This document shows, piece by piece, positions 23,131 through 55,560 of a stretch of DNA of 64,000 nt (position 1 is its first letter; the number at the start of each line of letters is the position of its first letter). The notes beneath the pieces are model-generated. The model was not told the origin of the DNA. It did no database searches and saw only the letters and a program-made list of their open reading frames with translations. This DNA comes from Pomacea canaliculata (taxonomy: Eukaryota; Mollusca; Gastropoda; Architaenioglossa; Ampullariidae), in the NCBI RefSeq assembly GCF_003073045.1, contig NC_037598.1, forward strand, positions 24,675,822 to 24,739,821. Direction: 5' to 3'. The position numbers and the translations under genes are program-made.

Positions 23131-26100
23131 ACTAAACAACCCAAGATGATGTTTGGCACATCAGATCGCTCAGAAGCTGGTAGGACTGGGTACAGGGAGG
23201 GGGATAAGGGACTGCGTGGTGACCTCCTCTCCACCAGCGACGATAGCAGCGGCCGGTAGTTGTTGCTGTAGTCGTCTCTTCAAGCTGATCGATGGTCTTT
23301 AAGAATCCGGATTCTGTCTCGCTCCAGCACGTGTACAAGGTACAAGGTACCCAGCTGCAGGGAGGTGGGTGAGCAGGTGGTGGGGTAGCACTAAGCTCAG
23401 GAAAGCCCTTGGCATGGTGTAGGAAGTGGTTGGGAGGATGTTCTGAGATAGTTGTCATCAAAACAAACCCGAAGAAAGCTACCACAATCAATCTGGATTG
23501 TAACAAGATGGACTAAAAATACAAGAGGATTTCTCCAAACAACAATACTCAACTGCTATTGAGACACAAGAGGCTGTCCACTTCATACAATGTTCACACC
23601 ACAGCGAAGACAATGTCCATCCAAACTGTTCTCTACGATATATTCGTCAATATAGAGTCTATTCTATGATACAATATTGCACACACAAGATAATGTGCAA
23701 CCCACGTATGTTGTCGGTGTAGTGTTGTATTCACACAATATTTAGCACAGACAAGATGTACACACGACTGTCCGTTGTTGTACCACCAGCGACCCCGATG
23801 ACCTAACTGCTGAGCTGAGTGAAAGTTTTACGAATCCTGATAACATTTCATTGCAGTCACTTAAACCCTCGCCTGCTGATCACAGATTTCTATCGTCTGT
23901 GTACATCTGTGGCCGGGGCAAGCGTTTAACTTATTGTCCTGAATACAATGGTTCCTCCAGTCGATGTTTTGGTTTTGTAGACAATCATGGCGTCACGTGT
24001 CGCGGTCCTTTGTCCTGGGCGGTGAGGACAGGAGGAGTGAAAGGCCGAACATGAGTTTTGCCTCTAGCATATTGGACTAACCTAAACAATTACAACTATC
24101 CAAGCTTATCTTTCCACAAAACAAGGGTGACTGGGATAGCTTTCATTTAAACATTTGTTGGATCCTGACTTCTATGTCCTTGACCTCGCGCTGTGCATGA
24201 CCCTTGTGAACCTGTATTGAGAACGGAAATGTGGTATTTACCCACACATGTGGAAACAGTATTGTGAAAGGAAAATTTCCCAATCACTTTGGAAAATTAT
24301 TCCCTTATTTCTTTAATGTACCCTGTTGGTCTCACTGGAAACTAGTTCTCAGCCAGTCAGCTGTCTCGACCTTCAGGCAACAGCCGGTCGGCTCCCACAG
24401 GACGTGGATGAAATATTTTACAATCTTGACCTTAGTTCCTGACCTATGTTTGAAGAGGAGTTCTAATTTAAGAATGAAGCTGGAATCGCAGATCTTTGTA
24501 AACCAGATTTCCACTGGGAAGGACTGTTGTGTAAACATGGCCTAAATGTCCGGCCCATGCAGACTCAAATGCGGACCCAAAATGCGACACGAGTGCGGAC
24601 AACCGAGTGCTAATTAAGACTACTAATTGCATAAGAAGCAATCAGCTGTACAAGGTTTCTAGTGTCAACAATAGGCCAGCCATCGACTTGTAAACCTTGC
24701 CTGTAAGACCCTGTACCCTCGCTTGCAAGTGACATGAATTAGGGTCAAGAGGTCACGAGCGTTAATGTCGCGGTTACCTCGCTGATTGACTTTGTAATGT
24801 CTGTTGATGTTATTTTACATTTTCATTGCACATCTGGACATGACACCACAGTCGAGACTAGCAGCAGAACATTCTACATGGACTCTCTTCATTACATCAT
24901 AGAAATGAAGAGATTAGGTGCGTGTTGTAACTTCGCAATTGATTGATTGATTGATCGATCTGTGCTGAGATTGACTGTGTTGTTGTGTGGTGTACTGTGT
25001 GACCTCTGTGGGTCCCAAGCAGCAAGGAAGTGTAAACAAACAGTTACAGTCGCCCTGTAACACGGAAATGGATATCAGTAAACAACAAAGAGTTAGTCAC
25101 CTGGGCGAACCCAGTCAAGTCGCCATCTTTCCTACTAAAGACAACTCATGTTCTTGCAGTTCATTGCGCCATCTGCTCGGGTGTGTTTGAGGACCTCAGT
25201 GAGACCCTCGGCCATCTGTATCCGTGGCGACTGCGACAGATGGAAACTTTATTGCCGTTACTGGCTGGAGCCTCTTGGCTTGTTAAGGAAAGTGCTTAGC
25301 GGTTGGTTTGAAGATAATATTTTATTCTTATCTTGTGGGTCGCCATCGTGGAATTCTCAAGCGTTCGTGCTCTCAGACACGCACACAGACCTACACACAT
25401 ACTTACAGCCGATGCACATATATACACAAATGTGCTCGACATGTACATACGCGCGTGCAACCACATACGGGCAACCACATACACGAACGCATGTACGCAT
25501 TTACACACAGGTTGATACATATACACACTCACACACATAAACCCATACACACACACAAACAAAGCACACGTACACACACCCACACTGACACAGATAACGC
25601 AAGGTAGATGCCACGAATATTTTTATCTCCTTTACTTTCGCTTTTATTTGAAACAGATGTTTGATCACCAGCCTTGAACCTTTTACATTTCTAAGCTGTA
25701 AAAGGGGCTGAGACGTGTTCACGGACCCTATTTACAAGAAGCTATGTTGGATTCTGTCATTGCATTATTATATTCACCACGAGAGGTGTGATCAGTGCGC
25801 AATCTGTGCGGGCGCCAGGCTACGGGAGCGGCGACCAGTTGCTAAGTGCGTGCCACCAACACACTGCGGCGAAGACTGTCAAGCTTAAGCTAATGATTAG
25901 TTAATGATCAGTGGGTGTGACTGCACCACGAGATAAACAAGGCTGAGAGTGTGAAGGGGTCTGTGAGGCTGGGGTCGACTGGCGCCATGTCGCCCCACCT
26001 GCACCGCGGCACCGAGCAGCACGTGCACAAACCCGTCGTCTGCTTGTGAAAACACTGCCACAGTCTTTTTTTTTAATTTTAGGAACGATGGAAAATCCAT

Positions 26101-26560
26101 TAGCTGTGTCCGCTGTCCAGAAAAGCTAGGGCAGTGTTAAATTTTATATATTAAAAAAGTATTTCTTAAAGAAATCTGTACTCGATGCTCCATGTTCCGC
26201 GCATGCGTAGTTATTCGCTTTTTTTCTGTCTTTATTTACTGCCGCAAAAACTCAAAGTTCTTAAAAAGAAATAAAAAAAGTACTTCAAACCTTTGAGCAA
26301 CAAAGTGTAAATACAACCGCAATTACACAGAAACATCAACACACGTGTGTTTAACACGCTGTTGATACTCTTACACCGGAAATGGTGAGTCACCACGTGA
26401 CTGTAGCACCGGAGCGAGTCGTATGCATCACAACTGAAATATTTGTCAGAAAGAAAAGCTTCATTCATGGCGCAGGCGCTCGGCAATTCGAAAAGCCTGA
26501 GACGACAAAGTGAGGTGGCGAGAAAGTTCGTGTACAGACACCCCGACAGCCTGACAGGAG
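23131..26560. other. Gene-free interval between USP and SHFL-like loci
   Basis: A TTGA run lies at about 24.94 kb and a long degenerate CA-rich tract at about 25.38-25.59 kb. A CpG-rich patch at 25.78-26.06 kb has an exon-like minus-strand segment, but its product is not recognisable. The interval separates a minus-strand USP exon from the plus-strand SHFL-like array, so it must hold two divergent promoters. Confidence 0.4.
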
Positions 26561-26569
26561 GAAGAGAAA

Positions 26570-26577
26570 ATATATAA
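26570..26577 (+). promoter_or_regulatory. TATA-like box of SHFL-like copy A
   Basis: A TATATAA motif lies about 150 bp upstream of the copy A start codon, which would place transcription start near 26.60 kb. The sequence after it (GGCAGACAACTCTC near 26.60 kb) is matched upstream of copy C by GGCAAACAACTCTC near 37.40 kb, so this block is conserved between paralogues. No experimental support. Confidence 0.4.
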
Positions 26578-26700
26578 CAGCATTTTCAACACCTACCAAC
26601 GGCAGACAACTCTCCTGTCGTTATTTTGTCGCGACTCGGGACTTCCGGCGGGAGAGCAGCAGGGGAAAGTAACCCACACCGACCTCCTGTAATCGGTAAA

Positions 26701-26715
26701 GATAATCGCACAGAC
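26701..26715 (+). promoter_or_regulatory. Conserved 15-bp box before the ATG, copy A
   Basis: GATAATCGCACAGAC lies just upstream of the copy A start codon. Near-identical 15-mers sit at the same place before copies B and C. Being so close to the ATG, it is probably 5' UTR or core promoter sequence. Function unknown. Confidence 0.6.
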
Positions 26716-26722
26716 TACACAA

Positions 26723-29700
26723 ATGGCAGCAGTAAATTATGATCAGGAGAATCGCGCGCCACATCGACAGGTAAGTGAACAGTCAGACTCACATCAGCTG
26801 CTGTGGCTGGTGTGGCTCAGACCTGGTGTGCATACACCCGGGTGCAGCTTTTTGTAGTGCTCAACATTCCGGATCACTTACTCCCGGCACTCCAAAGATT
26901 GTATTTCAGGCGAGCCATGGCTTGTTGCATGTGATTGCCTTCCTGCACACAGCTGTGACTGTAATACACAGGCTGGGCAGACTCCTGCCTGACTCGCGAG
27001 TATTAAATCGAAAACGAAAGTAGGGAGTTTGGAGGAGATTGCTGTTGGAGAAGTTGTTGTATGTAGTTTTAAGATGTTTCAGTCGTCAGCATCTGTTAGC
27101 ACGCACCACTTGAATATTTTTTGGTGGTCTAATGAGGGCAAGGGAGGAGATTTATACTCTTCGTATTTGAAACACTTCCTAGTAAGGACTCACGTTTCGC
27201 TGAAAACAGAGACCGATGACTGTTGTCCAACTTCTTTCTTTCTCCGTCTCAGTTGTCTACCCCTCCCCCTCTGTGTGTGTGTGAGAGTGTGTTGTTACAG
27301 AAAGTGTGTGTGTGTCACTGTGTGTGTGTATCTCCGACTGCCGAGGGCTGGCGAGGGCTCACCCGTGTAGTCGCTCACTCAACATCTCCGTCATGCATGA
27401 TACGCATCTGACGTACCAGGCTTTGTGCGCCTTGCCGCGCGCGAGACAGCGACGTCAGTGAGTAGTCCGCAGGCTGGCTCACAGACTTGCTGATAAACAT
27501 CCTGCTCAGGACAAATCTGCAGAATTAATTAACTCAGGTGGTTACATGTGTGCACAGCGCTTGCACTGACGTCAGCGCACGTGGAAACCACTTCCTCTGG
27601 CTCTGGTGTGCGTGCGCGTGTTTTCTGATAAATAAAGGACGACAGGCAGTCAGATATTAAGTCAGGTGTGATTGCTGCTTTTTTATTTCCTGTATGATGG
27701 TTAAAAAGTAATGTTGTTTCCACGTAGCAGGCGCCAAGTGTGGAAGGTGTGTGTCACGTGACTGAGATGATTGTCTTGCAGGCCCGGCAGCTACAAGAGT
27801 TGTTCCACGGCCGCTTTTCCTTTGAGGAGGCCGGGAACTGATCGCAGCCAAGGGAGACTTGCAAGAAGCTGCAAACTTTGTGCTCAATGGTAATCTTAAC
27901 AACAACTGTAATAGATGTGAATGAATGTAGCAATGTTTTATGTGTGTATTTTATGTATGTAACGGCTTCCCAAACAGTTTTTAAAATCTGGAAAGGTTAA
28001 TAATATAAAAGATTGGAAAACATGTCAGTGTGAAAGTTTGTTTACAATGGACAGATAAGTGTGGAAATTTGAGAAGACTATTTTTTAAACATTCTTCCTA
28101 ACTTGGATAAACTCAAAATCTATCATAAGGACATGTTGTGTATATGTTATGTTCACATTATGCATGCATGATGTATTTATTATTGCTACACCATTCATAT
28201 ATTATATACACAATCTATGATACTGTAGTATGCCAAAGTCATGTATATATTGTATACATATTGTACATACATTATTATATATTGTGTCATCATCATTGTG
28301 TATTGTGTATACATTATACATGTGTCGGATATTATATACACAGTATGCATGAAGTAAATATTTACCTATTTTCATTATGAATGAATTATGTAAGTGATAA
28401 TGCATGTACAGTATGCGCTTATGTGTATCATATATTTCTGATTATTTATAAATATGTATCAGATATGTGCTTATGTAGCTGTATGTTAATGTTGGTGACC
28501 ATAATAGTCTGTAATGTTTGCGCAGTTCTGTGTGTGAGTACCCGCTATTTCATGCTACTAGTATGACGGGTAGGTTCATGTCTGTCTACAGGGGATGCTG
28601 CTGAAGTCACGGCTTACATCTGGGTCGGAGAGAGGTGAGTTTCCTCGAACATAGAATAAATATAAGGGAAGGTCAATGAATGTTTTTGAAAAAAAAAAAA
28701 AGGTTAAGATTTTTCCTAGCTTAACCTGAAGGTTTACTTCATTAACATTTTTCCGATGTCAAAGTTCAAGAGACAAAAGTCAAAACAAAATGGTTAGCGA
28801 GAAATTCCTCAAAATTTGATCTCCGCTTGTAAGAGAAAATAAAATAAAAGAATAAAGGTGTACTAGGCGCAGTCACAGGTTAGACAAATAGTGTTTAACA
28901 TTTCTTTAGCAAGGTACTTAATGCAAGTTTCTAAGCAAGCAAGTGTTGTGTGTACAGTGAAGAGGATGTTTCAGGACCTGAGGGAGCTGAGGCAGATCAA
29001 CGCTGCCCGAGTTCGAGAAGAACTGACCAATGGGATGCCAGCTTCCACTCGACTCTTCGCCTGCACAGACTGCAACCGTTATTGGTGGCGGAAAGTTCCA
29101 GAAAGGAAAGAGGTGCGAATAGTTTAATGTATCACAGTGTCAGACAAAATATCACAAACCTCCTCAAAATTACACTCGTTCATTCTTAGCAATTGTTTCT
29201 GTGACCTATCACCGTTAGGTTTACGATTGTTATTGTAAACAATGCTGTGATGTTGCCTTCACGTGTGTATGTATTCACAACTCCATGTTAGAGAATCTTC
29301 GAAAACAACATTTATTTCTCGGTTGGATTGATTCATGATAATTAGTAAATGCTAAAAATCTTTGCTTAAGGATTACATATGAAAACCGTGTAGTGTCCAT
29401 GGTGCTTATTGGTATCCATGGAGACCTCATCTCAGGTAGCATGCTGTACTTTGTCTACGCTCTAAACTACCCTCAGGGTCCAGATACAATAATAAACCCA
29501 AGGTTAGCTTTGCCACCGCTCTATAACTACAGTTCCGTGGGTAAAACATCTGTAAGGGAGGAGTCTGGACACTCATTAAAAATTTAGGATACCCTGTCGC
29601 TTGTCCTCGAGTTCCCAATGTTACCTACAGGACAAGCAACCCTCGGTAACTACCACCCAGATGTTGCAGATATAGTGGCATGCCTACACAAAACTCAGGT

Positions 29701-30822
29701 GATAGATGAGGTGATAGAAGAATCATTAAGTTTGTAAGTCACCTGTCCATGTGTCTCATAGTGTTCTGTGAATCACACTGCCTACCTTGTACTGCAGGTG
29801 TCCAGGTGTAACAAGTGTCGCAGCAAGTACGACCCTGTACCCCGGAACACGAGTGGGGGCTGGCGGACTTTGAGTGCGACTGCGGCAACTCCTTCAGGTG
29901 AGTCTCTGGCATTTTCTCTCTTGTAGCACACATGTACGATCGTGTGCTGATATTTTGTTTACTTACCTGTGAAGGCATTCTACAATCGACACTAATCGCG
30001 GCAAGAGGACTTCAAAATAATTATGTTGACACTTGACATCCGAGGTTCATCAAACGTGACGCGTTCTTGTTTACACTTTGTAAAACAATTTGTTGACGAC
30101 TGCTGTGCTCTTCATATATCAAACAGTATTATAATCACAATAATGCTTTTTATTATGACTACTACTTAATTTTCTTCTCATAATTATCATCATCATTATT
30201 GCTCAGAGCAACGGGGCTCATGAATGAAACAACCCGGATTTGTCTGAGATGTAACGCCTACGTGTACCCGGCACGGATTATTCCTCCATCTGAAAATCTG
30301 GAGAGAAGACCGCGGAGAGGTGAGAATGTCAAGGGACATAAGCTACGACACCAGACATTTAGTTTTACAAATTTTTTTTTTTTTTTTTTTTTTGAGATGT
30401 CTGGTATTTTTGTAGATTTAAACGATACATAAACGTGTAATTTTTGAAAAAGCTATTTATAAACGCTGTCTGTGTTTCTGAATCGGACCAATCTGAGTCC
30501 TGATACCTGTTTACGTGTCCGATGTATCTGAGCTTTGATAAATTTCATATTGTATTTCAATGATTAATAACTTGACAGTTATTTCATCTTTTTTATCAAA
30601 CATGTTTTAGCACCGATGAGGCAGTTCCTGCAGTTGCATGAAGATCAAAGAATTTTAAGGGAGGTGTACTACCCGAGTCCGCGACACCTCAGCACAGGTT
30701 CCACGGTGCCCACGTGTCTCACCCAGGGTGACTTACAGGAGAGGTACAACTTTCCCATCGTCCTCCCTGTGATAAGGGAAGAACAAGGTGGCAGTGATGA
30801 CGACGACAACGATAGCAACTGA
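26723..30822 (+). CDS. SHFL-like: SHFL-like antiviral frameshift inhibitor, copy A (7 exons)
   Basis: Exons: 26723-26770, 27782-27889, 28592-28634, 28975-29112, 29798-29897, 30207-30319, 30611-30822. All introns are GT..AG. The intended protein is about 254 aa; human SHFL is 291. The order of parts matches SHFL: an N-terminal helical segment (ARQLQELFHGRFSFEE; human has LREKFHGKVSS), then FAC-x2-C-NRYWWRKVPERKEV, then C-x2-C with KYDPVPR, then FECDCGNSF, then C-x2-C before VYPARIIPPS, then STGSTVPTCLTQG and an acidic tail with DDDDND. The cysteine pairs form the zinc-ribbon core. Vertebrate SHFL binds frameshifting RNAs and ribosomes and blocks -1 frameshifting of viruses; the same role here is inference. 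Compared with copies B and C, exon 2 is one base short (after FEEA), as are exon 3 near its donor and exon 5 after PVPR. The exon 2 shift gives an immediate stop. Whether these are consensus errors or true lesions is open. Confidence 0.85.
27010..27021 (+). promoter_or_regulatory. ISRE-like motif in intron 1 of copy A
   Basis: GAAAACGAAAGT fits the interferon-stimulated response element consensus GAAANNGAAASY, about 240 bp into intron 1. Vertebrate SHFL is interferon-induced and molluscs have IRF proteins, so an IRF site is plausible. By chance alone, about one such match would be expected per 130 kb of double-stranded sequence, so support is modest. Confidence 0.3.
30371..30392. repeat. Poly-T run in intron 6 of copy A
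   Basis: An intronic homopolymer of about 22 T. On the minus strand it would be the A tail of a retroposed element, but nothing recognisable is attached. Confidence 0.8.
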
Positions 30823-31004
30823 TGGAGTCTTCGCGAACCTCAGGTCTTGCAGTTCCTCGCGATACCTCCTCGTTGCCTAGCAACCTCAGGTTGTTCGTCT
30901 GTTGCCTCCCGACCATCTGTTATCAACCTCTTGTTAAGGAGTATCGCTGTTTCAGAGTTGAAGCTTTGTGGTTTTTTTTTAAAAAAAAATTATAACCGCC
31001 TCTG

Positions 31005-31010
31005 AATAAA
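31005..31010 (+). terminator. Polyadenylation signal, copy A
   Basis: AATAAA lies about 180 nt after the stop codon of copy A and is the first canonical hexamer downstream of it. Confidence 0.6.
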
Positions 31011-31644
31011 TTCATGCAAAGGGGAGACAAAAGAATGGTGTTATGCCTTGCAAAAATGGAACAGATGAACGAACGCGATGAAAAACTCCCGCAAAATTCC
31101 AATTTTAAACTACATTAGTTGATTAAAATATCGGACAAACAAACTAAAACAAAAAGTCACAAAAGTTGAAATAAAAACACAAAACAAAACAAAGAAAAAA
31201 AAATCCAGAACATCAAACACCTTCAATAAACCACCACAGACTTCGGTGAGGTGAAAGTTTTATTTTTTTCATCGCTCGCTGTTGTCTAGCACAAAGGTGT
31301 GAAGACCTGACTGTTTCCCAGGAGGTACAACCAGCAACTTTATTTGTTTTCTCTAACCAGACTGATTTCCTAGACTGGATGTGATTAAAGGAACCGAGAT
31401 AATTAATGCTCCACTCGGTCAATTTAGCAAAGGGAGTACGGGTAAAGGGAGATTAATTTATTTTTCTGACTTCCAGACTAATTCTCTTCTCTCACCCGTT
31501 ACAAGGGACGTCAGCAGTTGTGTTAAGTTGCAGGATTTCTAACAAGATTTAGGATTAAAAATACATTTTCACATTACCTGAAAGGGGCTTTGGGAACAAA
31601 CAACGCAGGAAAAGAATAAACACATGTCAAGTACTCGTAACATA

Positions 31645-31667
31645 CCTCCTCCTCCTCCTCCTCCTCA
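31645..31667. repeat. (CTC)n microsatellite
   Basis: A short trinucleotide run between copies A and B. Confidence 0.85.
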
Positions 31668-31983
31668 TATCTGTCTGCATGTTTATACCTCTCTCCCAAG
31701 TCTCTCTCCCTTACATAGAAACTAAAACTGATCGCACTTTTTAATCAGGATGTTGCTAACTTTATTTACTAATTTGCTAATGTGTCCCTCATTTCCCATT
31801 CCCTGACAGTCTTGTAGCACCCCGGGTATTTCGTTAGTCAGTCAATTAATATTCTCCATCATCAGTGATGATAAAGGACAAAACAATGAAATAGGTTGGG
31901 GTGTGGGGTGGGGGTCAAATCCTACCAAAGGAAGATAACTCAGTCTTGCTGTCTTCCTGTTCCGGCTGAGTGTTATCATCAGT

Positions 31984-31998
31984 GATAATTGCACAGAC
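31984..31998 (+). promoter_or_regulatory. Conserved 15-bp box before the ATG, copy B
   Basis: GATAATTGCACAGAC, one base different from the copy A box, lies a few bases upstream of the copy B start codon. Confidence 0.6.
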
Positions 31999-32004
31999 TT
32001 CAAA

Positions 32005-35000
32005 ATGGCGGCGGATGAGGGACAAGCAGAATACGACCGACAGGTAGGTGAATCCTCTTCACTCGCGATGCAACCAGCATCCACCCTGTTGTGTAGAGGA
32101 TGTGAATGAGGGTGTCGGGTGGGTGTCGTGCTACATGTATCCATATTATTAACAGTTACACTCGACACTGGAATGTTGTTGCTGACATCTGTAAAGTCTT
32201 GCTACTTGGGTCACCTGACCGCCGTTGAAACTGTTAGTAAAGTCAGGAATGTGACTATTTCAGTCGCTAACACCTATTAGTTTAGTTGATTAGTTTATTT
32301 TTCTTCTAATCCGTCAAGATGTGTACTTTCGTTTTTAAAACATTTCACTAGACGAGTTTGTGTGTCGCTTAAAACAAAGACAACTTTATATTTTTATCAT
32401 TTATCCTTATTCCCCATCCTCTCTAGCCCCTGCCCTCTCCCCAGTGTCGTACTTGTGTGTAAGAGACAGAGGGAATGAATGAAAGTATCCTCAGCACTCA
32501 TCAAAGGGTGTGTCACGTGACTGATCTTGCAGGTGCGGAAGCTGCGAGAGTTGTTCCATGGCCGCTTTTCGTTTGAGGAAGCGCGGGAGTTGATGATAGC
32601 CAATGGAGGATACCGAGAAGCTGCACAATTTGTACTTTCTGGTAATCTTAATTAACATTGCCTTTGGTATATATTTATATATCTGTCTGTGTAAGCGCCC
32701 TCGAGAACGAGAGAGTATAGATGTGTGTGAGTGTAACAAAGATTTATCAGATGAAAGAATTATCTTTTGACGATGGTCCACAGTTTCAACAACTGCTTGT
32801 TATCTGCTTTAACAGTTAAATCAGGAAAAGATAATAACTGTATGTTTAGCCAGAACACAGATCATTATTTTAATGAGATTATTTTAATGAGTCATCGTCA
32901 CACCTGAGTGTGTGTGTGTATGTGTTTATCTGTGTGTTTGTATGTGTTTACATGTGTTTATGTGCGTCTGTTAGCGTGTTCTTTCAAGGTTGGGTTTACT
33001 CATGTTCGTATTGTATCAACTGTTGACAGCTTTTGTGAAGTCATGTGCTCACGCCCTTGCTTATATTGTCTTTATGTTACTCTTCTTTCATTTGTGACTT
33101 GGGTGATGTTTTCTCATCTGTTCAGGGGATCCAGATGAAGTGACAACTTTTATTTTTGGTCTGAGTGAGGTAAGTGTAACTAGTGGGTAAGACAAAGTAA
33201 TGTTCATACTATTGAGATAATTTGTAGCCTCAGACACGACACCCAATGATCACTGAAGACTGTAGACTCGGTGTCCAATTTTAAACATGAGTCAAATCAT
33301 GTTATCAATTAAACATGTCTCATTCATGTCCGAGGCGCAGTGCCAAGTGTGACTCAATGTTTTTAACAACACTAAATGCCGTAGGAGCTGTTTGAAATAT
33401 ACAAAATTAAAAAGGAAATATTGAATGTCAGACAAGTGAAGTCCATGTTGCAGGACCTGAGGGAGCTGCGGGAAACCAGTGCTGCGCGCGTGTATCATGA
33501 GCTGACCTCTGGCATCACCACCTCCACTCGTCTCTTTGCATGTAAAGACTGCGACAGGTACTGGTGGCGGAAGGTCCCACAGCGGAAAGAGGTACAAAAC
33601 ATATCTCATCTCACCGATAATGCAAGAACCACTAACAAGGAATCCCTCTGCATATCTTCCTTTGGTTTCATCCTTTTTTACGAAGTCTCTGCTCATTGTC
33701 ATCGTTCATTCCATATCTTGACGAGTCCAAGATAATCTGTCAATACTATCGAACACTTTTTTTCGTCACCTACATCTCCATATTCAGTACTATCTCATCA
33801 TCTATATATTGACCAGCATCCAAAGTCTGTTTCCTTAATCAACTTAATGTGGGACCGTGAACTGTAAGTGACTCACCGTGTCTACCCGGCATGTACAAAT
33901 CAGAGTTTGACTTTTTTCCTACCACTTGTTATCATCCCTGATAAATTACCTAGACTGGTGGGCAAATTTCCAGTCGAACCTTACACCGACCATATTTTGC
34001 TAGAATGTCCTGCCACCACACCTGTCCCTCAGGTAACAGGTCACAGTTTCCTGCTCTCAACATTCGTCTTACATGTCTTCAGTTACAATAAACTTTGTCT
34101 TTGTTTACATGAAGTGACACTAATAATAACAAGTATTTTCTTGCTTGAGGGGGTAACTACACACCGACTCAGTTGCTGACAGTTCATTGCAGGTGTGTCA
34201 AAGTGTTATCAGATGTCATTTGACACAGGACTGACATTTCACTGCAGACATTTCAAAGTATCATGGGGAGGTAGGTGACATTTTACACAGAAATGAAATG
34301 TCATTGCAAGTGTCAAAGTGTCATGGAGTGTCAGGTTTAAAGTAATTCTCACTTCGCTTCACAGAAGAGGGGGGGGTGGAAGTGTCAGGAGTAGATGTTA
34401 GGTTTGACACAGTCCTGACATTTGACTGCAGGGTGTCAGATATGTCAGATTTGACACAATAGTGACATTTGACTGCCTGACATTTGACTGCAGGGTGTCA
34501 AGGGTAGATGTCAGATTTGACACAATAATCACATTTCACTGCAGGTTTCAATGTGTCAGAGTGCGAAGTCAGGTACGACCCGGTACCCCGCGATAAGGAA
34601 TGGGGTTTGGCTCTGTTCGAGTGTGACTGCGGCAACTCCTTTAAGTGAGTTCACATCGTGCATGGTTGCATGTTCTTGTTGTACATACAGCTGTGGTTTA
34701 ATTTATTTTCTATTTATTTGCTGTTAAAAGGTGACTTAGACCTTTACATCCGGTCATGTGAATAACTTTACCTGTCGGCTTTACGTTTTGGCTACAGTAT
34801 AATTGAGACTGGTGTTTGGGATACATTATAATTACGATTGGAATTCGGATACATTATAACTAAGACTGGTCTTCAGGACACGTTATAACTGAGACTAAAC
34901 TTTGTAATACATTATAAATGAAACTAGTCTTCTTATTCTAGTCTGGGAAACATTATTGCAACTGTCTTCTGTTGATAGTTTAAACCAAGCTCATACCATA

Positions 35001-35927
35001 CACATGTTTACTTCAATAGAACTGTCCTGAGATGTTTTTCTATAACACTATTGTATTACTTGCCTTAAAATGCTGGCAAAATATCATGATGATGATGATG
35101 ATGATGATTTTATTCTCAGAGCGCAAGGGATCATGAATGAAACAACTCGGCAGTGTTATGAGTGCTTCGCCAATCTGTACCCCACAGAGATTATACCTCC
35201 ATCCGATGATCTTCAGCTAAACCCGAGAAGAGGTAAAACAAGAAGAAAACAAAAGTCTGTTTACTTTTAAAGGACTGTTTGTGTTACTGCAAGCTCTGCT
35301 CTTCCCTCTCCAAAACATACTGTTCACATTGACTTTGGTTGACGCCCTCTGACCCCGACAGGAAGCTCGTGTCTCGTGTTGCAAACACATCTAGTCAGTC
35401 GTTAAAGATGCTACTATCCTGTTTTCCCCTTTCTTCAAGCTCTACTACGATGTAAAAATGTACAAGTCTGACCTGAACATCATGCCAGATTGTATTCACA
35501 AAATGAGAGGAAACAACCTCTCCCTCCCAGAACATCGTGACCATGCCAAGAAGAGGTCAGACACCTGAGGTCACGTTTGTTTACGAATAAAGCCAGTTAG
35601 TCCCACTTGTTCCATTGCTGTATCCTTGACAACGTGACACAATAGATTCTTGGCCTTAAGAATTGGGTTTTTTTTATGTGGATGGTGTTGTTTGTGCATT
35701 AAATTGAATTTTATGTTTGTTTCTTCCTTTCTTCAGCTCCAATGCGCCAGAGAATTGTTCAGAGAATTTCCAGAAGGGTGTACTACCCAAGTCAAGTACA
35801 CGAGAGCACCGGCTCCACGGTGACAACCTGTCTTACCCAGGGTACCCTGCGGGAGACTTACAACTTTCCCATCGTCCTCCGTGTGATAGAGGAAGAACAC
35901 AGCGATGATAACAGCGACAATAACTGA
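32005..35927 (+). CDS. SHFL-like: SHFL-like antiviral frameshift inhibitor, copy B (7 exons)
   Basis: Exons: 32005-32043, 32533-32641, 33126-33169, 33454-33591, 34545-34644, 35120-35232, 35737-35927. Exon phases are the same as in copy A. The intended length is about 244 aa. Visible parts, in order: start MAADEGQAEYDRQ; VRKLRELFHGRFSFEEAREL; the zinc-ribbon half FACKDCDRYWWRKVPQRKEV, whose VPQRKEV is identical to human SHFL; RYDPVPRDKEWGLALF; FECDCGNSF; C-x2-C with NLYPTEIIPP; STGSTVTTCLTQG; an acidic Asp/Asn tail. The start is the first ATG after the conserved 15-bp box. Copy B has a single defect, one base missing early in exon 5 between the two cysteines of its C-x2-C knuckle. Exons 1-4, 6 and 7 are intact. 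It lies about 1.2 kb downstream of copy A. Intron 4 carries a tandem repeat of its own 3' splice site region. Homology is clear; antiviral action is inferred from the vertebrate family. Confidence 0.88.
32325..32336 (-). promoter_or_regulatory. AAAACGAAAGTA motif in intron 1 of copy B
   Basis: On the minus strand AAAAACGAAAGT lies in a stretch of intron 1 that aligns with the matching stretch of copy C, where the core AAAACGAAAGTA is kept. In copy A the aligned site has diverged. The motif is one base short of the ISRE consensus. Confidence 0.3.
34180..34560 (+). repeat. Minisatellite that duplicates a 3' splice site
   Basis: There are about six imperfect units of roughly 50-75 bp, sharing TGTCAGATTTGACACA, GACATTT and ACTGCAGG blocks. 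The last unit contains the real acceptor and first bases of exon 5 of copy B (ACTGCAG at 34538-34544). Further ACTGCAG or ATTGCAG acceptor look-alikes occur in earlier units, near 34.19, 34.24, 34.43 and 34.49 kb. None of these restores the exon 5 reading frame. Confidence 0.8.
35086..35108. repeat. (ATG)n microsatellite
   Basis: A short trinucleotide run just before exon 6 of copy B. It gives a spurious poly-Asp start to the exon's open frame. Confidence 0.9.
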
Positions 35928-36049
35928 CGAATCCTTCCCAAATCGTAGGTTATATAGCTGCTGGCCATACCACTTCATCTCCTGGCAACCTCATGCAAGG
36001 AAGCCATCTTTGTTAACAGTTTTAATTTCGTTACTTGTCATTATCGTTG

Positions 36050-36055
36050 AATAAA
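36050..36055 (+). terminator. Polyadenylation signal, copy B
   Basis: AATAAA about 120 nt after the copy B stop codon. Confidence 0.6.
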
Positions 36056-37250
36056 CAATTATGCCGGATAAAAATAGAGAATGGTGTAACATATTGTAAA
36101 AATAATAAAGAGATGGTCGACTATTAAAAATAGAAAACAAATACACTACAACAGCAGAAAAGTAGAAAGTAACAAAACTAGCAAACAAATAAATAAACCT
36201 CACTAAATCATCAAGAAGAAGAAAGTCTGTTAATCGATTGATATTATTGGTGACAGAGCGAATAGCAACGACATCTCATTTAGAAATATGTCAAGACTGG
36301 TTAGTTTATCTTTTTCAGTGACAATATCAAAGACCAACTTTATTAATCCCAGCGATAAATTATACTGGAGAAGTTTGCTTTGGTATAAACACAAACAAAA
36401 CAATAAGTACAACAAGTGCTGCTTACAAGATGATGGGGACAAGGTTGTGTATCATAGCAAACTTTCATTTTTCATGTTGTACAACCAGAAGGTTCATTTG
36501 TTGTCTTTACCCAGACCTGTCTGATAGGGTGGGGGTAGTTGGGGGATTGAGTAAACTGCCCTTCGGTGACTCAGTGAGTTTATATGTCTGCAATAGGTCA
36601 GGGGTGAAAATGTGTTTCTGTGTCTTCCACATTAACTCAGGTTTTCACCGGTGACAACAATGTTCACAAGTTTGTTGTAAGCTGAACGATGTTTCAACGA
36701 TATTTGATTCAAAGTAACTTGAGATTATCATAAGAATTACACACCAAAAGAATAACCCAATATTAAGTAATATAATTATCCCCCTTGCTCATATCTCGTT
36801 TATAATTTTCTTCAACACAATCAACATTTATTATCATGTCAGTTTCATGTCTTCTATTGTTACATTAAAGTCTCATTCTCTTATTTCTCCTTCTCTCTCT
36901 CTCTCTTCATGTCTTTTTTTAATTTTAAAATTTTTTCCAGGTTTTAATACTTACAATCATTAGTTATTATCATCTTTTCATTAGTATCTTCTATTTAGTC
37001 TTACTCTCACTTTCTTTCTTTCCTCTGGCCCCGACTCTCTTAATCCCGCACTCATTTCTGACTGTAGTTGTCATCAGTTCACTTCTGTCCATTCTGTTGG
37101 AAATAAACTGTAGCTGGTAATACTATTGAGAGTGATGTCCCTTTGAGGAGATAACTCTATGTATTTGTGATTTTACGTTGACCTGTTGTGAATATCGTGC
37201 TTTTTATTGAATAAAGACTTTTTCATCATTGTGGTGAATTATTTACTAGT

Positions 37251-37265
37251 GAAAGTGAAAGTGAA
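37251..37265 (+). promoter_or_regulatory. IRF/ISRE-like GAAAGT repeat upstream of copy C
   Basis: GAAAGTGAAAGTGAA lies about 245 bp upstream of the copy C start codon. It contains a full GAAANNGAAASY match and resembles the PRDI-type IRF sites of vertebrate interferon-responsive promoters. It could also be a short hexamer repeat of no function. No equivalent was found upstream of copies A or B. Confidence 0.4.
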
Positions 37266-37489
37266 TGAGAGGCGACTGTGTGTTAATATTTGTCTTGTGT
37301 TCAGACATTATATATAATTTGTGTTTGGACTGTTCGTGTTTTGTGGTAAGAGTGACTGTGTGTCTGTGACACCACCACAGTCTCTAACAACCAAAATCAG
37401 CGGCAAACAACTCTCTTATTCTTATCCACCTTGTCACTACCCGACTTTTTTCCTTTACGGACGTGCTTTGACGACAGCTGGTCGTCAAT

Positions 37490-37504
37490 GATAATCGCTC
37501 AGAC
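37490..37504 (+). promoter_or_regulatory. Conserved 15-bp box before the ATG, copy C
   Basis: GATAATCGCTCAGAC, one base different from the copy A box, ends four bases before the copy C start codon. Confidence 0.6.
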
Positions 37505-37508
37505 CAAG

Positions 37509-40500
37509 ATGGCAGCTGCACCCGATGACGACCAAGGGGACGCCAGTCGACAGGTAGGTTGTCTGGGGAATTCTGTTCACCTGTGTGATATGGTGTTGTG
37601 TGGGGGATGTGGGCCTGTAGACTTGCTGTCCTCTTATGTATACTGTAGCAGTTACACCCGACACTCCATTGTTCTTGTTTGTACACCTCAGTGCTTGCAT
37701 TGACTTGCATCGTCTGACTTGCAGGCCAGGCTTTTGGGAGACTCGCGGCTAAACATTGTTCAGTTTGAGCTGGTAAACATAAGAAGTGAATGTGAAGAAG
37801 TGTTCGGACAGGTGGTTAAAATAGTTTGAAATTTATTTAGTCGACATCTGGATAGTATAGTTCTTCATATTTGACGAGAGATCTACTTTCGTTTTACAAG
37901 CTTTTCGTGAGAAGAATTGTGTATTGCTTAAAGCAAAGACCAGGCCATGATTTCTGTTATCACCTTTTAATCCCCCCCTCCAAACAGTCTTTCTATTGCT
38001 TGGTGTGTGTGATGTGTGCGTACGTGCATGCAAGGGAATGAGGAAGTGAGAGGATGTGTGTGAGAGAGAGAAAGAGAGTAAGAGAGATCGCATATGCTTT
38101 AACTCAAAGTTTACAGAGCAACAGAACTGGCAGGTTAAAGCTGTAGATTATTTGCGGGTAAAGTACTAGTTAGAAATTCAGGAGAAATGTGTATTAGAGG
38201 GAGATCACAACATGGTTGTAATTTAATTTTCTATGCTTTCACGTTCGTCTGTCTGGTTTTGGATAAAAATGCTAAACAAGTAGTAAAATTATTGCGGGCT
38301 ACATAAGCAAACAAGTAGCCCGTGAACAGATGTTGGTCTTTTGTGAAATGAAAGAACAGGTGGTGTATGTTTGTGTGGCACACCTGTCCATTACAGCCAT
38401 TCAGAATAAAGGAATAAAAGTTATATGAGAACTGAGCACGCCATGTGTTAAATATGTGTGACAAGTGACTTACTGCCCTTGCAGGACCGGAAGCTGCAAG
38501 AGTTGTTCCGCGGCCGATTTTCGCTTCAAGAAGCGAGGGAGCTGATAGTGGCCAAGGGTGGATTAGAGAAAGCTGCTCTCTTTGTACTCAACGGTAAACA
38601 TAAGATACTTTAGTGTTTATGTGTATATGTGTGTATGCGCATGCGCTCCAATGCGTGTGTGCGCGCGCGCGTGATATTGCGTCCTCTACCTGCAGGTATC
38701 TCTGTATACACGGTGTGTGGTAGTGTCACGTGGGTTTTAAACATTGACAGGTTTAAATTTTTTTGAAAAGTTGTGCTGATAAAGCAAATGTTTGAGTTCT
38801 TTTTAAGCTGCTGTTCTTCCAGTTATTACATCAACATTATTGCTCATTACTCTGTCAAGGCAATCCAGATGAAGTCACAGCCTTCATTCTTCATCGGAGA
38901 GATGTAAGTGTCACCAGTGGCAACCACAAGTTTACTTTCATGTTTCTTTTACCACGGATGTAATTTGCAGACACCAATACGACAACCCATGATGACTGAA
39001 GTATATAATGAGTATCTTAAAAAATGAAACAAATAATGGTAGCAACGCGAGTTTTCCAAGAACTACTAGATGATTGTAATAACTCTCAAGGAAGGTCTGT
39101 GTCAGATTCTGAAACACAAAAACAGAACTCAAAGGAGATCAAAGAAGCTAAGCCCAGGCTGTTTTATCAAGCTGTCGGAAGTAATGTAGAGGTCGCTGTG
39201 TGGTCGACTGTACAGTGAGTGGATGTTGCAGGCTCTGAGGGACCTGAGAGAAATCAGTGCAACGCGCGTGAAACAAGAACTGACCAGTGGTGTCAGCGCC
39301 TCCATCCGACTCTTCGCCTGCGGAAACTGCAACAGATACTGGTGGAGAAAGGTCCCAGAAAGGAAAGAGGTACAGACAACAATTAGAGTTGTTACTGAAA
39401 CTATAAAAAATGGTCATTACTCCAAGTCTTGGCTGGTTCAGCACCAATCGACATGACAGGAAATTCCTTTTATCAGTCACTTTGATACAAACAGTTTTCT
39501 GTCAAACTCTCGTCCATCCATCGTCCTGAAGGTCAAGACAACAGCTTCCATAGACTGAGAGCCTCAGGGAACACGAGAAGTGACTTATTGTGATTAGACA
39601 CGGCTTGAGGAAAGCTCGCCAGACTCTCATTGATACCACTCTTACCTCCTGATTAATTAAACACAAACATACTGGGTAGACTGTTTTGGTTTTGAATTTT
39701 TGGGAGATCAGTCAAGTTTTGCTGCCGAGCCCAGAAATTTTACTTAAGATGACTAAGTGTTCTGGAGGTGAAAGTTTCGAGATGCTCCTGACCTCTGGTT
39801 GCAGGTATCTCAGTGTCATCAATGCGACGTGAAGTATGACCCCGTGCCCCGGGAGCACGAGTGGGGGCTGGCGGTGTTTGAGTGTGACTGCAGCAACACC
39901 TTCATGTGAGTCCAGGTTATTTCACGCGCACAAGGTGTGGTTTGAAAGCCTTTTTTAAAGTATGGTCTACATTCTACATGATTTGGCTGATTTCCCTTCT
40001 CCTTCATAGGTCTGGGTGTCTACAGATGGTAATTCTTTCCTTTTTAACTATAAGCAATAAATAATAAAATTATGTTTAAGAACAAAAGTATGATTATTGC
40101 TATGCTGATGGTGATTATTTTTAAAAAATTAAAAAAAATTATATTAATTATATTAAAAAAAAATCAAGAAATGCTGCTGCTGCTAATGATGATGATGGTG
40201 ATGATGACTGGTTTCAGCTCAACAGGTCTCATGAATGAAACAGTCCGTAGTGTTTCAAATGCAAGAAGGATGTGTACCCAGCACGAATAATTCCACCCTC
40301 TGTTGATCTGGAAAGAAAACCACGAAGAGGTACAAATAAGCGAAAAAGTATGTTTTTTAAAAAGTTGGATGATAACTAGTTAGGTTTACACCACAGACTG
40401 TCACAGAAAAATGTGACTTGATGTAACCTTTCATTTCATACGGTCTCAAAGTTTTTACTTTAGCCTTAATTCCTTACTTTCTTTAATTTTGTTGTAAATG

Positions 40501-41033
40501 TCAGCATCTTAATGGAGCCATTACAAATGTGCTATCATTTTTTTCCTTTCTTTTAAGTCTACTAATCTACAAAACGTATTTTCAAACGCCTGAGCTCATC
40601 TCTGTAACAGATTGTATTTACTAGTGATATACAAGTTGTATTTACTAGTGAGATACACATTGTATTAATTTCTGAGTAAACCACCACTGCCATCATTTCC
40701 AGAGGTATAGCCTAGTCAATGAATCCCAGTAATCATATGATTGCAGTACTGGATGTACTTGAGTACCCTGTAGAACGGGGTGCTTTAAGTCCCAAATCTC
40801 ACTTTAAGTGTGTTTTTCTGTTTTTCTCCAGCCCCGATGCGCGAGTTCTTGCGCAGGGATCAGACTATTTTCAGACAAGTGTACTATCCAAGCAGAGTGC
40901 ATCATAGCACAGGCTCCACTGTATCCACCTGTCTCACCCAGGGTGACCTACAGGAAAATTACAACTTCCCCATCGTCCTCCTGTGATAGGTGAAGAAGAT
41001 GGCAGTGATGATGACAACAACGATAACAACTGA
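37509..41033 (+). CDS. SHFL-like: SHFL-like antiviral frameshift inhibitor, copy C (7 exons)
   Basis: Exons: 37509-37553, 38485-38593, 38860-38903, 39232-39369, 39805-39905, 40218-40329, 40832-41033. Exon phases equal those of copies A and B. The intended length is about 250 aa. Parts in order: start MAAAPDDDQGDASRQ; DRKLQELFRGRFSLQEAREL; FACGNCNRYWWRKVPERKEV; C-x2-C with KYDPVPREHEWGLAVF; FECDCSNTF; a C-x2-C knuckle with DVYPARIIPPSVDL; YYPSRVHHSTGSTVSTCLTQG; an acidic tail. Exons 1-5 are intact. Exon 6 is one base short just before its first zinc-ribbon cysteine. Exon 7 is one base short in the C run after the segment NFPIVL, giving a TGA at 40984 instead of the aligned stop at 41031-41033. 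Intron 1 holds a relic of exon 2. No canonical AATAAA follows closely, and a tandemly repeated 3' UTR segment is visible at 41.04-41.14 kb. Family assignment is strong; function is inferred. Confidence 0.88.
37725..37772 (+). pseudogene. Exon 2 relic in intron 1 of copy C
   Basis: After a good acceptor (CTTGCAG) come GCCAGG and, after an internal gap relative to exon 2, a GGGAGACT-GC-AAC-TTGT stretch that ends at a GTAAAC donor. This aligns with the two ends of copy A exon 2. The segment is 48 nt, open, and phase 0 on both sides, so if spliced in it would add 16 residues without shifting the frame. It is either a decayed duplicate exon or a cassette exon. Confidence 0.45.
37885..37896 (-). 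promoter_or_regulatory. AAAACGAAAGTA motif in intron 1 of copy C
   Basis: Counterpart of the motif at 32325-32336 in copy B, at a similar distance from exon 1 and in the same orientation. Confidence 0.3.
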
Positions 41034-41283
41034 TGCCCCCGTGAGCATCTGGTTGTACAGCTTCTTTGCCTTATCACTTCTTTAACAACCTAGGTTGTAC
41101 AGTCCGTACCATTTCATCTTCTGTCAACCTCATGTTAAGAAACCATCGTTGTTTCTCATTTAATCTTTTTATTACTTGACATCTGTTAATGAGTAAAAAT
41201 ATTCAAAGAAACTTTTGAGAGTGGTTTTAAGTAGTATCAACGACCAGCAGACAAAAATAAGAAGAGATCGAAAGTAAGGGAAC

Positions 41284-41350
<67 letters not shown>
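41284..41350. repeat. (ATG)n microsatellite
   Basis: About 22 ATG trinucleotides. It encodes a meaningless poly-His run on the minus strand. Confidence 0.95.
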
Positions 41351-41351
<1 letters not shown>

Positions 41352-41786
41352 AAGATTCTCCAGGCAGTCCCCTCAGAACGTTTTCATGCCCTGCAAACCC
41401 TTTTCCGTCCCGTAGGCCAGACACAGTTAAAATTATTGTATCAGCGATTCAGTGACAATGGGTAGGAGACATAAATATCTGTCTATGGCTTAAGTTCTTC
41501 GTCAGCTCAGAAAACCCACCACAAAGGTCAGATGTCAGCTTAGGCCACAGACTTAATAACCATTGTGTAATCTTATCGCCGAACATTCCTCTGGCGCAGG
41601 GGAGCAGAACTAAGCAAGCACACCTCTAATTTCCTCTGACAGTTAGTCTGGTTTGACAGTCCAGTAATTTCAGACAGAATTAAGATACAAACATACCCAG
41701 AGCTTTGCAGCCAGTACAAGCAATGGGTTAGTGCGGTTGTACAACATTCCCAAGGATGGCTGTCGCAATCAAAAGTTCACTGTTGC

Positions 41787-41809
41787 AAAAAAAAAAAAAA
41801 AAAAAAAAA
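41787..41809. repeat. Poly-A run
   Basis: A run of 23 A, possibly the tail of an unrecognised short retroposon to its left. Confidence 0.8.
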
Positions 41810-44633
41810 TTGTAGAGGCAGATGTCCTTGTAAATTAATACCAGAATATGATGCCCTTTGTCATGCGTTCTATGAATAAATGTGCGCGAGGTTATTGGAG
41901 CGAAATAATGATTCTTTATGGGTTATTATACGGTGAGTAATTCATATAATGGTTTTTCTATGTTTGTATGACTACCTTCTTCCAAGGGTATTTTTCAATT
42001 CCGATTATACAGGAGCAAAAATTCAAAATATTTCTAAAAGAAAGAGGCCTCGACATAATACCTCGATGTGCCTTCGTAAAACAGTTTGTAAAAAAAAAAT
42101 AATTAGACTTATCTACAAGGTCTGTACATTATCTGTGGAATGCAATGACCTCTTTGCACGCTTAGGTTTTTGCTTAACTTCCTCGAACCCCCTACTTCGT
42201 TCTTTGTAAGGCTCTTTATGTGCTTTAATCCTTTTATTTACTATTATCTTCTATCTGTAGCAAATCTGCAATGTTTCTAATTTAGTGTCCGTTTACATGT
42301 GCATGATCGCACAGCCCGTAGCTAGGTACCGCAGTTATGGCCTCTTGGCTGTTTAGCTCCATTGTTTTACTGCAGCTGTGAGCGGTTGAAAGTTTAGAGA
42401 ACAGGAGATAACCCACGTAAGGGATACACCGCCATTTGTATCTGTGAGGGAGGGGAGGGCATCGAGGATCTAAGCTGCAGTTATATCCCTTTAATATTTT
42501 AACAAAACGGCTATTTCTGGTCTCAATAATGTGTCCTGATTTCAAAACTTTAGGAACTTTAGAAAAATCTGATTTTTTTCCCAGTTAAAATATAGTATAA
42601 TGCAGTTCTCTCCCCACGAAATCACCTCGAAGTGGAAGCACTTTCCTACTAACTAAACCAACCAACCAACCCTTGTTCAAAAAGGCAACAACCAGTCAAC
42701 TATTTAGAATTTATCTAGCCTTTTTTAATACAGCTGCAAAGAGAATATTTGTTATATGTATACCAACTATGACACAACGAGCAATCTTCTCTGACCTACA
42801 ACTCTTACATCTCACTTGTTTATATTTTTACTCTTTATTCTTGTTTATCCTCGCGGTTAAGCTGATACACTGGCATTGGTAGTTAATATGTAAGAGTGGG
42901 AAGGTAGCTTCAGGACGCAGGAGAGTGGAACGAATGGACTTCCTGCCATGCAGCAGCCATGGGACAAACCCTGATATCAAGGCGCGATGGAAAAGGTCAC
43001 GTGATCGATAGCCAGGGGCTTATACTCTTGCAGACGGCAGATGGAGGGTTGTAGGTCTTGAAGCCACCACAAGATGTTGACAATGTCGCAGATGAAGCTA
43101 AGATGGCAGTTTTTTTTTTTCACTTTTTTTTTTTAGTATCTCTTGGGTTAGCAAGCTCGAAAATGCATCTCCACCGCACCGTCCTACCTTCATCAATTTC
43201 CACTGTCATGTTGGGAGCTAGTACACCAGCTATCCCTCGACCATATTCATCAGCATATCTACCTTGCGTTTCACACAGACATACCAGAATGAAGAGACAT
43301 TCTATTTTGGTTGAAAGACTTTCCACTCATTTCTTGCTTTCATAATAACTTGTGTCAAGCTACATTCAGTTATAAAAAGAAGTCGATGTATCCATGGTAC
43401 CAACAAAATTAACATTATTCATATACATTTGCGCTTGGTAGATGTACAAGAGTTAGAAAGGGTTTTCGAGATTTTTCTTAACGACAAAAATGTCAACCGT
43501 AAGAAAAGCTCCTGGTCATGTTTAAACCACAGGCGTCAACAATGAGACAAGGTTTCTGTAGCTTAAACATGGTCAATAGTTGAAGTTTTGTTCATTACCT
43601 ATTATATGTCCGGGTGAAGCCTTTTTACCAGGTTGTAGACCATGCTCTGTCAAAAAACTAAACAAAAAAACAAAAAAAAAACAAAAAAAAAAAAACAAAA
43701 ACAAAACTACCGTAAGTACAATATTTGTTAATCCTCCTCTCACACACAAAAGGTCAAAGGAGATCCATAGAACATAGAACCACTTTATTTCAACAAGATG
43801 CCTCAAGATCACGTTATGCACAATAATTCGTGGGGATCAAAGAAAGCTGTACAAGTATCCTTACAAAAATTTGTTGAAATACAAAGCACTGCTTTCTGTA
43901 TTACAAACGTATCACACAATCTGAAACAAGTAAAAACGATCGAGACGGAGATGGTCTTATGCAGAAATAGAGGGAAGTAACTCTTTCACGTTTACTTCCG
44001 ATTCAAAGCAGCAGTGACCTCCCATGGACCATGTAGCCTTGGTCGAGTTCGTTTGGGGTGCCAAGGGATGCCAGTGCTCTTCATTTTGCTTTCATCGCTC
44101 CGTTCATCTGCGCAGTTTAGTACCATTCTTGATAATAGTTTGGATTTCCAGCACAATAATTTATGTCTGCAGAGTTGTTTACTTGAACTTCAAAGGATTA
44201 GTTCCATTCGTGAATTACCTCACTACCCATGCAACCACAATACTAGTCTGTGTTCTAAAGGATTGATTATTGTACTTCTGTTTTAACTTAATAGACTTGA
44301 AAGACAAATGCTGCTCATCTGTTAATCGTCTAGATAAGAACATCAACATCCATCATTCGCTTATCTGACTGACCGTTTAACCTCTAAACTATCCACATTG
44401 ACCTACTTCGCTGCCAGCACCGCACCGCTCATTTTTCTACACCAGGCTTTGACTAAGACACAGATGTAAGAACAAAGGTCAATTTTATACCAAACGCCGA
44501 CCTTCCTGTCTGCCTACGATATGTTAAACACTCTGGCCTGCTTTCAGTCCAAACTGTTTTGAGACTAAGATTTTCTTACTCCAAGATCAGCAGTTCACAC
44601 AAGTTCCTCCCGTCAGCATTATAGAAAAAAAGT

Positions 44634-55217: not shown

Positions 55218-55560
55218 GTTTCGTGTCGAGGGTGAACCGTGAATAAAGCCGGTAGCGAGAGACTCGATGAGCAGACGACCAGTGAGTGCGCGCGCAGCCG
55301 CAAGGCGCAGCCACCACTCGACGAGCCGCGCCTCGCTCCCACTCGGAAGTGTTCGGAGGGTCGGAGGTCACACACGAACTTTGCCGAGTGTTGTTGAGTG
55401 CGCTGTGCCAAATAAATAGTTTGCGTACAGTCGTATGCGGGTCAGTCTCTCGTCTTCAAACGCACGATGACTCACGCAGCGGCTTCGCGATGTCAGCTAG
55501 CGGGTTCGTGCAAGTTAAATCCCTCGACTGATCATTTTGCGATCTGACCGAGCCTGCGCT
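55218..55560 (-). promoter_or_regulatory. CpG-rich probable promoter of the central USP gene
   Basis: Immediately upstream of the USP ATG is a stretch of about 340 bp, clearly richer in CpG and GC than the AT-rich sequence around it. Position and composition suggest a promoter. No TATA box was placed, and no clean heat-shock element (GAAnnTTC) was seen. Confidence 0.4.

Follow-up and report, generated by a model that had tools for sequence, protein, structure and literature searches.

Introduction

Most work on SHFL (Shiftless, also known as C19orf66, IRAV or RyDEN) concerns its role as an interferon-induced restriction factor of vertebrates, and molluscs are not known to possess the classical vertebrate interferon system. 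Here we describe a tandem array of three SHFL genes in the gastropod Pomacea canaliculata, contained in a 64-kb stretch of contig C9 (NC_037598.1; C9:24675822-24739821, hereafter the window), together with a fourth family member on another contig, C13. Human SHFL is reported to bind ribosomes that are in the act of frameshifting and to recruit the release factor eRF3 (PMC10747187), while its RNA binding runs through arginines of the zinc ribbon (PMC8310280). When R131, R133 and R136 were jointly replaced by alanine, the protein was the least active in RNA binding and frameshift inhibition (PMC8310280). Basic residues of the human ribbon have also been reported as needed for Gag-Pol suppression but dispensable for activity against human immunodeficiency virus type 1 (HIV-1; PMC11055011), and a short human isoform lacks the 36-residue region 164-199, which is required for anti-HIV activity (PMC9324250).

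SHFL homologues have been described in hemichordates and echinoderms, and interferon-independent functions have been suggested (PMC5309953). The original prediction for this locus, made from the DNA alone, placed the array outside vertebrates. That description is correct, but such a position is not new for the family, given the homologues in PMC5309953. Among the open-licence PubMed Central papers listed in our searches, none was a study of a mollusc SHFL; two of the searches listed 8 of 31 and 10 of 8,769 papers and carry little weight, and the others listed every paper found. Public gene annotation may already name these genes. PMC11349179 carries C19orf66 in its reference list only, and PMC8310308 draws no link between C19orf66 and molluscs. 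In the snail array we see an old expansion of this known family, including a shortened subtype, and we consider it rather likely that this tandem SHFL/UPF0515 expansion, standing beside a canonical-type copy on the other contig, works in a broadly SHFL-like manner.

Structure of the array

The three genes (copies 1 to 3, here g1, g2 and g3) lie head to tail on the plus strand at window positions 26723-41033, consecutive and with seven exons each, just as originally predicted; both ends agree exactly, with the start codon of g1 at 26723 and the stop codon of g3 ending at 41033. GT..AG borders were found at 18 of 18 introns, exon phases match across the three genes, and the exon lengths follow one common pattern (g1, 48/108/43/138/100/113/212; g2, 39/109/44/138/100/113/191; g3, 45/109/44/138/101/112/202 bases). 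The encoded proteins are 244-256 residues long and contain the motifs that had been named for them, except that g3 has FRG where g1 and g2 carry FHG. In a repeat search of window positions 24000-44000, the longest three-copy families were the array exons with short flanks, as expected for an old duplication. The features of the array, all on the plus strand of the window, are as follows.

26723..30822, plus: g1, full coding region in seven exons, of which 2, 3 and 5 change frame
26723..26770, plus: g1 exon 1, start codon
27782..27889, plus: g1 exon 2, FHG-type N-terminal segment, one base short
28592..28634, plus: g1 exon 3, one base short
28975..29112, plus: g1 exon 4, first CxxC and YWWRKVPERKE
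29798..29897, plus: g1 exon 5, second CxxC, KYDPVPR, WGLA..CDC, one base short
30207..30319, plus: g1 exon 6, aligns with human 164-199 (needed for antiviral activity)
30611..30822, plus: g1 exon 7, STGSTV-x-TCLTQG block, acidic tail, stop
32005..35927, plus: g2, full coding region in seven exons, of which exon 5 changes frame
32005..32043, plus: g2 exon 1
32533..32641, plus: g2 exon 2
33126..33169, plus: g2 exon 3
33454..33591, plus: g2 exon 4
34545..34644, plus: g2 exon 5, one base short
35120..35232, plus: g2 exon 6
35737..35927, plus: g2 exon 7, stop
37509..41033, plus: g3, full coding region in seven exons, of which 6 and 7 change frame
37509..37553, plus: g3 exon 1
38485..38593, plus: g3 exon 2
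38860..38903, plus: g3 exon 3
39232..39369, plus: g3 exon 4
39805..39905, plus: g3 exon 5
40218..40329, plus: g3 exon 6, one base short
40832..41033, plus: g3 exon 7, acidic tail, stop, one base short

A GATAAT ... CAGAC stretch just 5' of the start codon is common to the three genes (about 26700-26722, 31980-32004 and 37485-37508). With three rows only and so short a stretch, we do not claim it as a regulatory element.

Membership in the SHFL family

The three array genes belong to the SHFL/UPF0515 family. When the array proteins, with an X entered wherever the frame changes, were scanned against Pfam, UPF0515 (PF15135) scored 137.7, 130.3 and 135.9 bits for g1, g2 and g3 over a cut-off of 29.8 (expectation values, E, of 6.2e-40, 1.1e-37 and 2.2e-39), and the runner-up families reached only E 0.046, 0.028 and 0.31. 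Against the human SHFL chain 9kbo in the PDB, g2 alone gave E 2.4e-33 in two separate stretches, and a four-sequence profile of g1-g3 and the C13 gene gave E 8.4e-45 in a single alignment covering human residues 4-280. The match therefore spans the N- and C-terminal blocks and not the zinc ribbon only, which bears out the SHFL-like identity first proposed; the proteins are not members of another zinc-ribbon family that would lack an SHFL match at the two ends.

The cysteines of the zinc ribbon and of the second set are largely retained. Alignment with human SHFL places Cys 112, 115, 132, 155, 158, 174 and 177 in all four snail sequences, and Cys 135 in three of the four (g1, g3 and C13), this position being unreadable in g2, where the frame change falls. 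The zinc ribbon set 112/115/132/135 characteristic of the family is thus present, and the second set, 155/158/174/177, is found in all four with one residue fewer between 155 and 158. Among the best-kept parts is the zinc ribbon with YWWRKVP-RKEV, in which 26-30 of 49 positions over human 102-150 are identical.

Other origins and relationships were considered and set aside. An apparent likeness of the exon 2 segment, F(H/R)GRFS..EA..L, to the first helix of SH2 or to a UBA helix bundle is unsupported and was not used as evidence: an exon 2 profile built from three of the four peptides (g1 was left out for its frame change) matched 19 PDB sequences at chance level (E 0.17-5.6), GRB7 among them (E 0.69-0.87), and neither SH2 nor UBA appeared in the Pfam scan of the array proteins at E up to 1. 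Run once against viral contigs, the four-sequence alignment returned 83 pattern matches and no relative, so we rejected viral capture, and one scan for prokaryotic relatives returned 85 pattern matches and no relative either; both scans rest on two short peptide patterns, which distant relatives may escape.

Copy number and the C13 gene

We searched the genome (440,159,624 bases in 24 contigs) both by family and by g2. All 9 matches of the former and all 15 of the latter fall in the array or at C13:12.20 Mb, in searches that score the best candidates only, so that a very diverged copy could escape. The fourth family member lies at C13:12201181-12204141. Its exons 2-7 (109/44/138/101/161/272 bases) form one open frame in the family phases; exon 1 of this gene was looked for and was not identified. 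The C13 copy scores higher against UPF0515 (172.4 bits) than the array copies (130-138), to which it is 48-51% identical, whereas the array copies are 65-71% identical among themselves. The original prediction had called the locus expanded, taking human SHFL to be a single-copy gene, and the term is apt, with four copies at two loci in the genome searched.

Divergence of the array copies at sites functional in human SHFL

Over human 200-233, which includes H203, C205 and C210, all 34 positions could be aligned in C13 (12 identical), compared with only 6 of 34 in each of g1-g3. Exon 6 aligns with human 164-199, where 17 of 36 positions are identical in C13, and the array copies align at 28-29 of the 36 with 10-11 identical. 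This exon is among the less conserved parts (38-44% identity to C13 and 56-72% between array copies). It measures 112-113 bases in the array, which is no multiple of three, so skipping it would give no in-frame equivalent of the human short isoform. Short tails rich in D, E and N close the proteins of g1-g3 and are absent from C13; human SHFL ends in a Glu-rich helix (261-291).

At the human RNA-binding positions 131/133/136, the C13 copy carries K/R/K, g1 R/N/R, g2 M/Q/E and g3 Q/H/D. Of the three arginines, two survive in g1 and none in g2 or g3, both of which hold an acidic residue at 136; in g2 the frame change sits one position from this cluster. Human SHFL has 10 basic residues over 121-138, C13 and g1 have 8, and g2 and g3 have 5, although R121, R126 and K127 are kept in all four snail sequences. 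Given the loss of the arginines and the smaller number of basic residues, g2 and g3 probably bind RNA in another way or make no contact with it; C13 has a canonical look at these positions. Judged from sequence, the array copies would be a shortened subtype and C13 the canonical type.

Frame changes and competing explanations

None of g1-g3 can be read in one frame as assembled. The frame changes six times, in exons 2, 3 and 5 of g1, exon 5 of g2 and exons 6 and 7 of g3, and each of these exons falls short of the family phase by one base; exon 5 is the only exon affected twice, at different places in g1 and g2. One explanation is that one or more array copies are recent pseudogenes, with C13 as the functional gene and the array decaying by frameshifts. 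It would account for the presence of six frame changes in the array when C13 exons 2-7 contain none. However, nonsynonymous (dN) and synonymous (dS) divergence between the array copies is 0.26/1.01, 0.19/1.11 and 0.24/1.05, so that every pair has a ratio of about 0.17-0.26 at dS about 1, and all copies have been under constraint during the greater part of their history. The array pieces contain no stop when read in the family frame, and no splice site has been lost; neutral decay with an assumed 5-12 substitutions per insertion or deletion (indel) gives this a chance of 0.11-0.005. That all six changes are one base short has a chance of 0.047-0.0007 under assumed one-base-deletion fractions of 0.6-0.3. 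The published Pomacea canaliculata assembly was built from PacBio reads with smartdenovo and Pilon (PMC6129957). As a control, we chose 6 intronless genes from 58 HSP70 matches and 6 long exons from 37 actin matches in the same assembly, leaving out the other rows, which are mostly parts of intron-bearing relatives. Frame-breaking indels were found in three of the six conventional actin long exons (4, 5 and 2 indels) and three of the six intronless HSP70 genes (1, 1 and 6), a total of 19 in about 16.8 kb (1.1 per kb), 12 of them deletions. The broken copies are listed here.

C10:25318506-25319481: broken actin copy
C10:25327972-25328988: broken actin copy
C1:4730804-4731781: broken actin copy
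C1:13863214-13865023: broken HSP70 copy
C1:13868280-13870090: broken HSP70 copy
C1:14727105-14728920: broken HSP70 copy

Because of the purifying selection, the intact splice sites and lack of stops, the single kind of change and the indels in actin and HSP70, indel errors remaining in the long-read assembly are the most likely source of the six frame changes. We favour this reading without regarding it as proved, and hold error to be considerably more probable than decay, which makes the pseudogene explanation unlikely. The original prediction had been conditional on the genes being active, and this condition is its least secure element, all three array copies being frame-changed in this assembly. 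A further idea, suggested by the fact that the family acts on frameshifting ribosomes and that all three array copies are frame-changed, is that the changes are programmed and that the family regulates itself by ribosomal frameshifting, as antizyme does. Programmed frameshift sites are normally conserved in place, and here they are scattered over different exons, with none in C13 exons 2-7. We rejected this idea as highly improbable because the sites are not shared between copies.

Several observations weigh against the explanation we prefer, that of an old, maintained expansion with broadly SHFL-like working. The array rate of 6 in 2,247 nt (2.7 per kb) exceeds that of the control, a mild excess (Poisson P about 0.045), and decay may also be under way in the control copies of actin and HSP70 that are broken. 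One of these actins (b3) is no more than 85.5% similar to the closest intact copy, and its indels may be old. The contrast between C13 and the array in frame changes points the same way, as do the universal-stress-protein matches, 15 of 16 on C9, of which one in 16 has an internal stop, indicating that the contig is not broken everywhere; this last control is weak because a frame change would shorten a match. The near-absence of the 200-233 block in g1-g3, the reduced alignment of their exon 6 and the missing arginines of g2 and g3 belong here as well. These losses are equally the basis of another explanation, in which the array copies, though expressed and maintained, act outside translation control, the zinc ribbon serving as a scaffold for some other RNA or protein partner, so that the antiviral reading would be wrong. 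The acidic residue at 136, the weaker conservation of exon 6 and the family scores below that of C13 agree with such a change of function. Against it, the zinc ribbon with YWWRKVP-RKEV is well kept and R121, R126 and K127 are present in every snail sequence. The arginine result made us slightly less confident in SHFL-like working and slightly more open to changed function, which we nevertheless regard as doubtful.

As a side observation, the indels in conserved actin and HSP70 copies are a warning for gene models and pseudogene calls made on this assembly.

Surroundings of the array

Outside the array, we compared 198 open frames of at least 66 residues with Pfam at E up to 0.01 (low-complexity frames were dropped and are not counted). 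The only strong match was to the universal stress protein family (two frames, best E 2.6e-19), and four other families were matched by one frame each at E 0.0026-0.0083. The universal stress protein genes lie downstream of the array.

44870-45091, minus: universal stress protein gene
60808-61026, minus: universal stress protein gene

By eye, 55143-55367 on the minus strand resembles a first exon of the universal-stress-protein kind. Genome-wide, 15 of the 16 matches listed for this family sit on C9. A run of 22 perfect ATG triplets occupies window positions 41284-41349, just downstream of g3. No Rfam family at gathering score and no transfer RNA was found within the window.

Possible function and comparison with known systems

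In the explanation we prefer, that of an old expansion beside a canonical-type gene, the zinc-ribbon core would engage RNA and ribosomes that shift frame or stall, release factors would be brought in, and translation would end there. The C13 protein keeps the features to which the human functions are tied, and with its full Cys/His set and basic RNA-binding positions it may retain a role in general surveillance. In the array proteins the cysteines of the zinc ribbon and WWRKVP-RKEV are preserved, but not all RNA-contact residues; with one Cys/His block lost, and in two copies the arginines, they may have acquired a changed RNA or ribosome preference. The shortened array subtype could potentially be used in antiviral defence. 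Ribosome and RNA binding, an antiviral use and a division of labour are inferred for the snail proteins, as is any antiviral or translation-control function of the array copies. The homologues and the interferon-independent functions put forward in PMC5309953 would fit an order in which surveillance came first and antiviral use second.

A sharper division of labour can be imagined, in which the canonical gene would carry out ribosome surveillance and the shortened tandem set, having lost a third Cys/His element and exchanged its RNA-contacting arginines, would be tuned copy by copy to different frameshifting viral RNAs or to protein partners. We offer this tentatively and think it improbable; if true, the array would be an invertebrate, interferon-independent antiviral frameshift-restriction locus. 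The family has become multi-copy in this mollusc, whose three shortened copies and one canonical-type gene show purifying selection at dS about 1. Natural variants without the Cys/His block and, in two copies, without the arginines may help to tell apart which parts of the protein serve ribosome binding, which frameshift arrest and which antiviral action. Should the frame changes prove real, the locus would rather be an example of turnover and loss within the family.

Compared with the array, the C13 copy has the same exon 2-7 phases, the same exon 2-5 length pattern (109/44/138/101) and the same motifs. It differs in having no frame change in exons 2-7, in the greater length of its exons 6 and 7 (161 and 272 bases), in keeping the HSC..CYNR block of human 200-233 and basic residues at 131/133/136, and in lacking an acidic tail. 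With human SHFL (9kbo) the array proteins share the N-terminal F(H/R)G segment, the CxxC pairs of the zinc ribbon, WWR-VP-RKEV, Y-PVP, WGLA-F, the second Cys set, a stretch of the P-x-RI-PP type, the (S/T)GSTV block and an acidic end. Human SHFL is longer (291 residues versus 244-256 in the array copies) and has CxxC at 155-158 where the array copies have CxC, and the array copies are without most of human 200-233 including H203, C205 and C210. Unlike human SHFL, the snail family comprises three tandem copies and one elsewhere. The hemichordate and echinoderm homologues reported in PMC5309953 are likewise non-vertebrate members of the same family.

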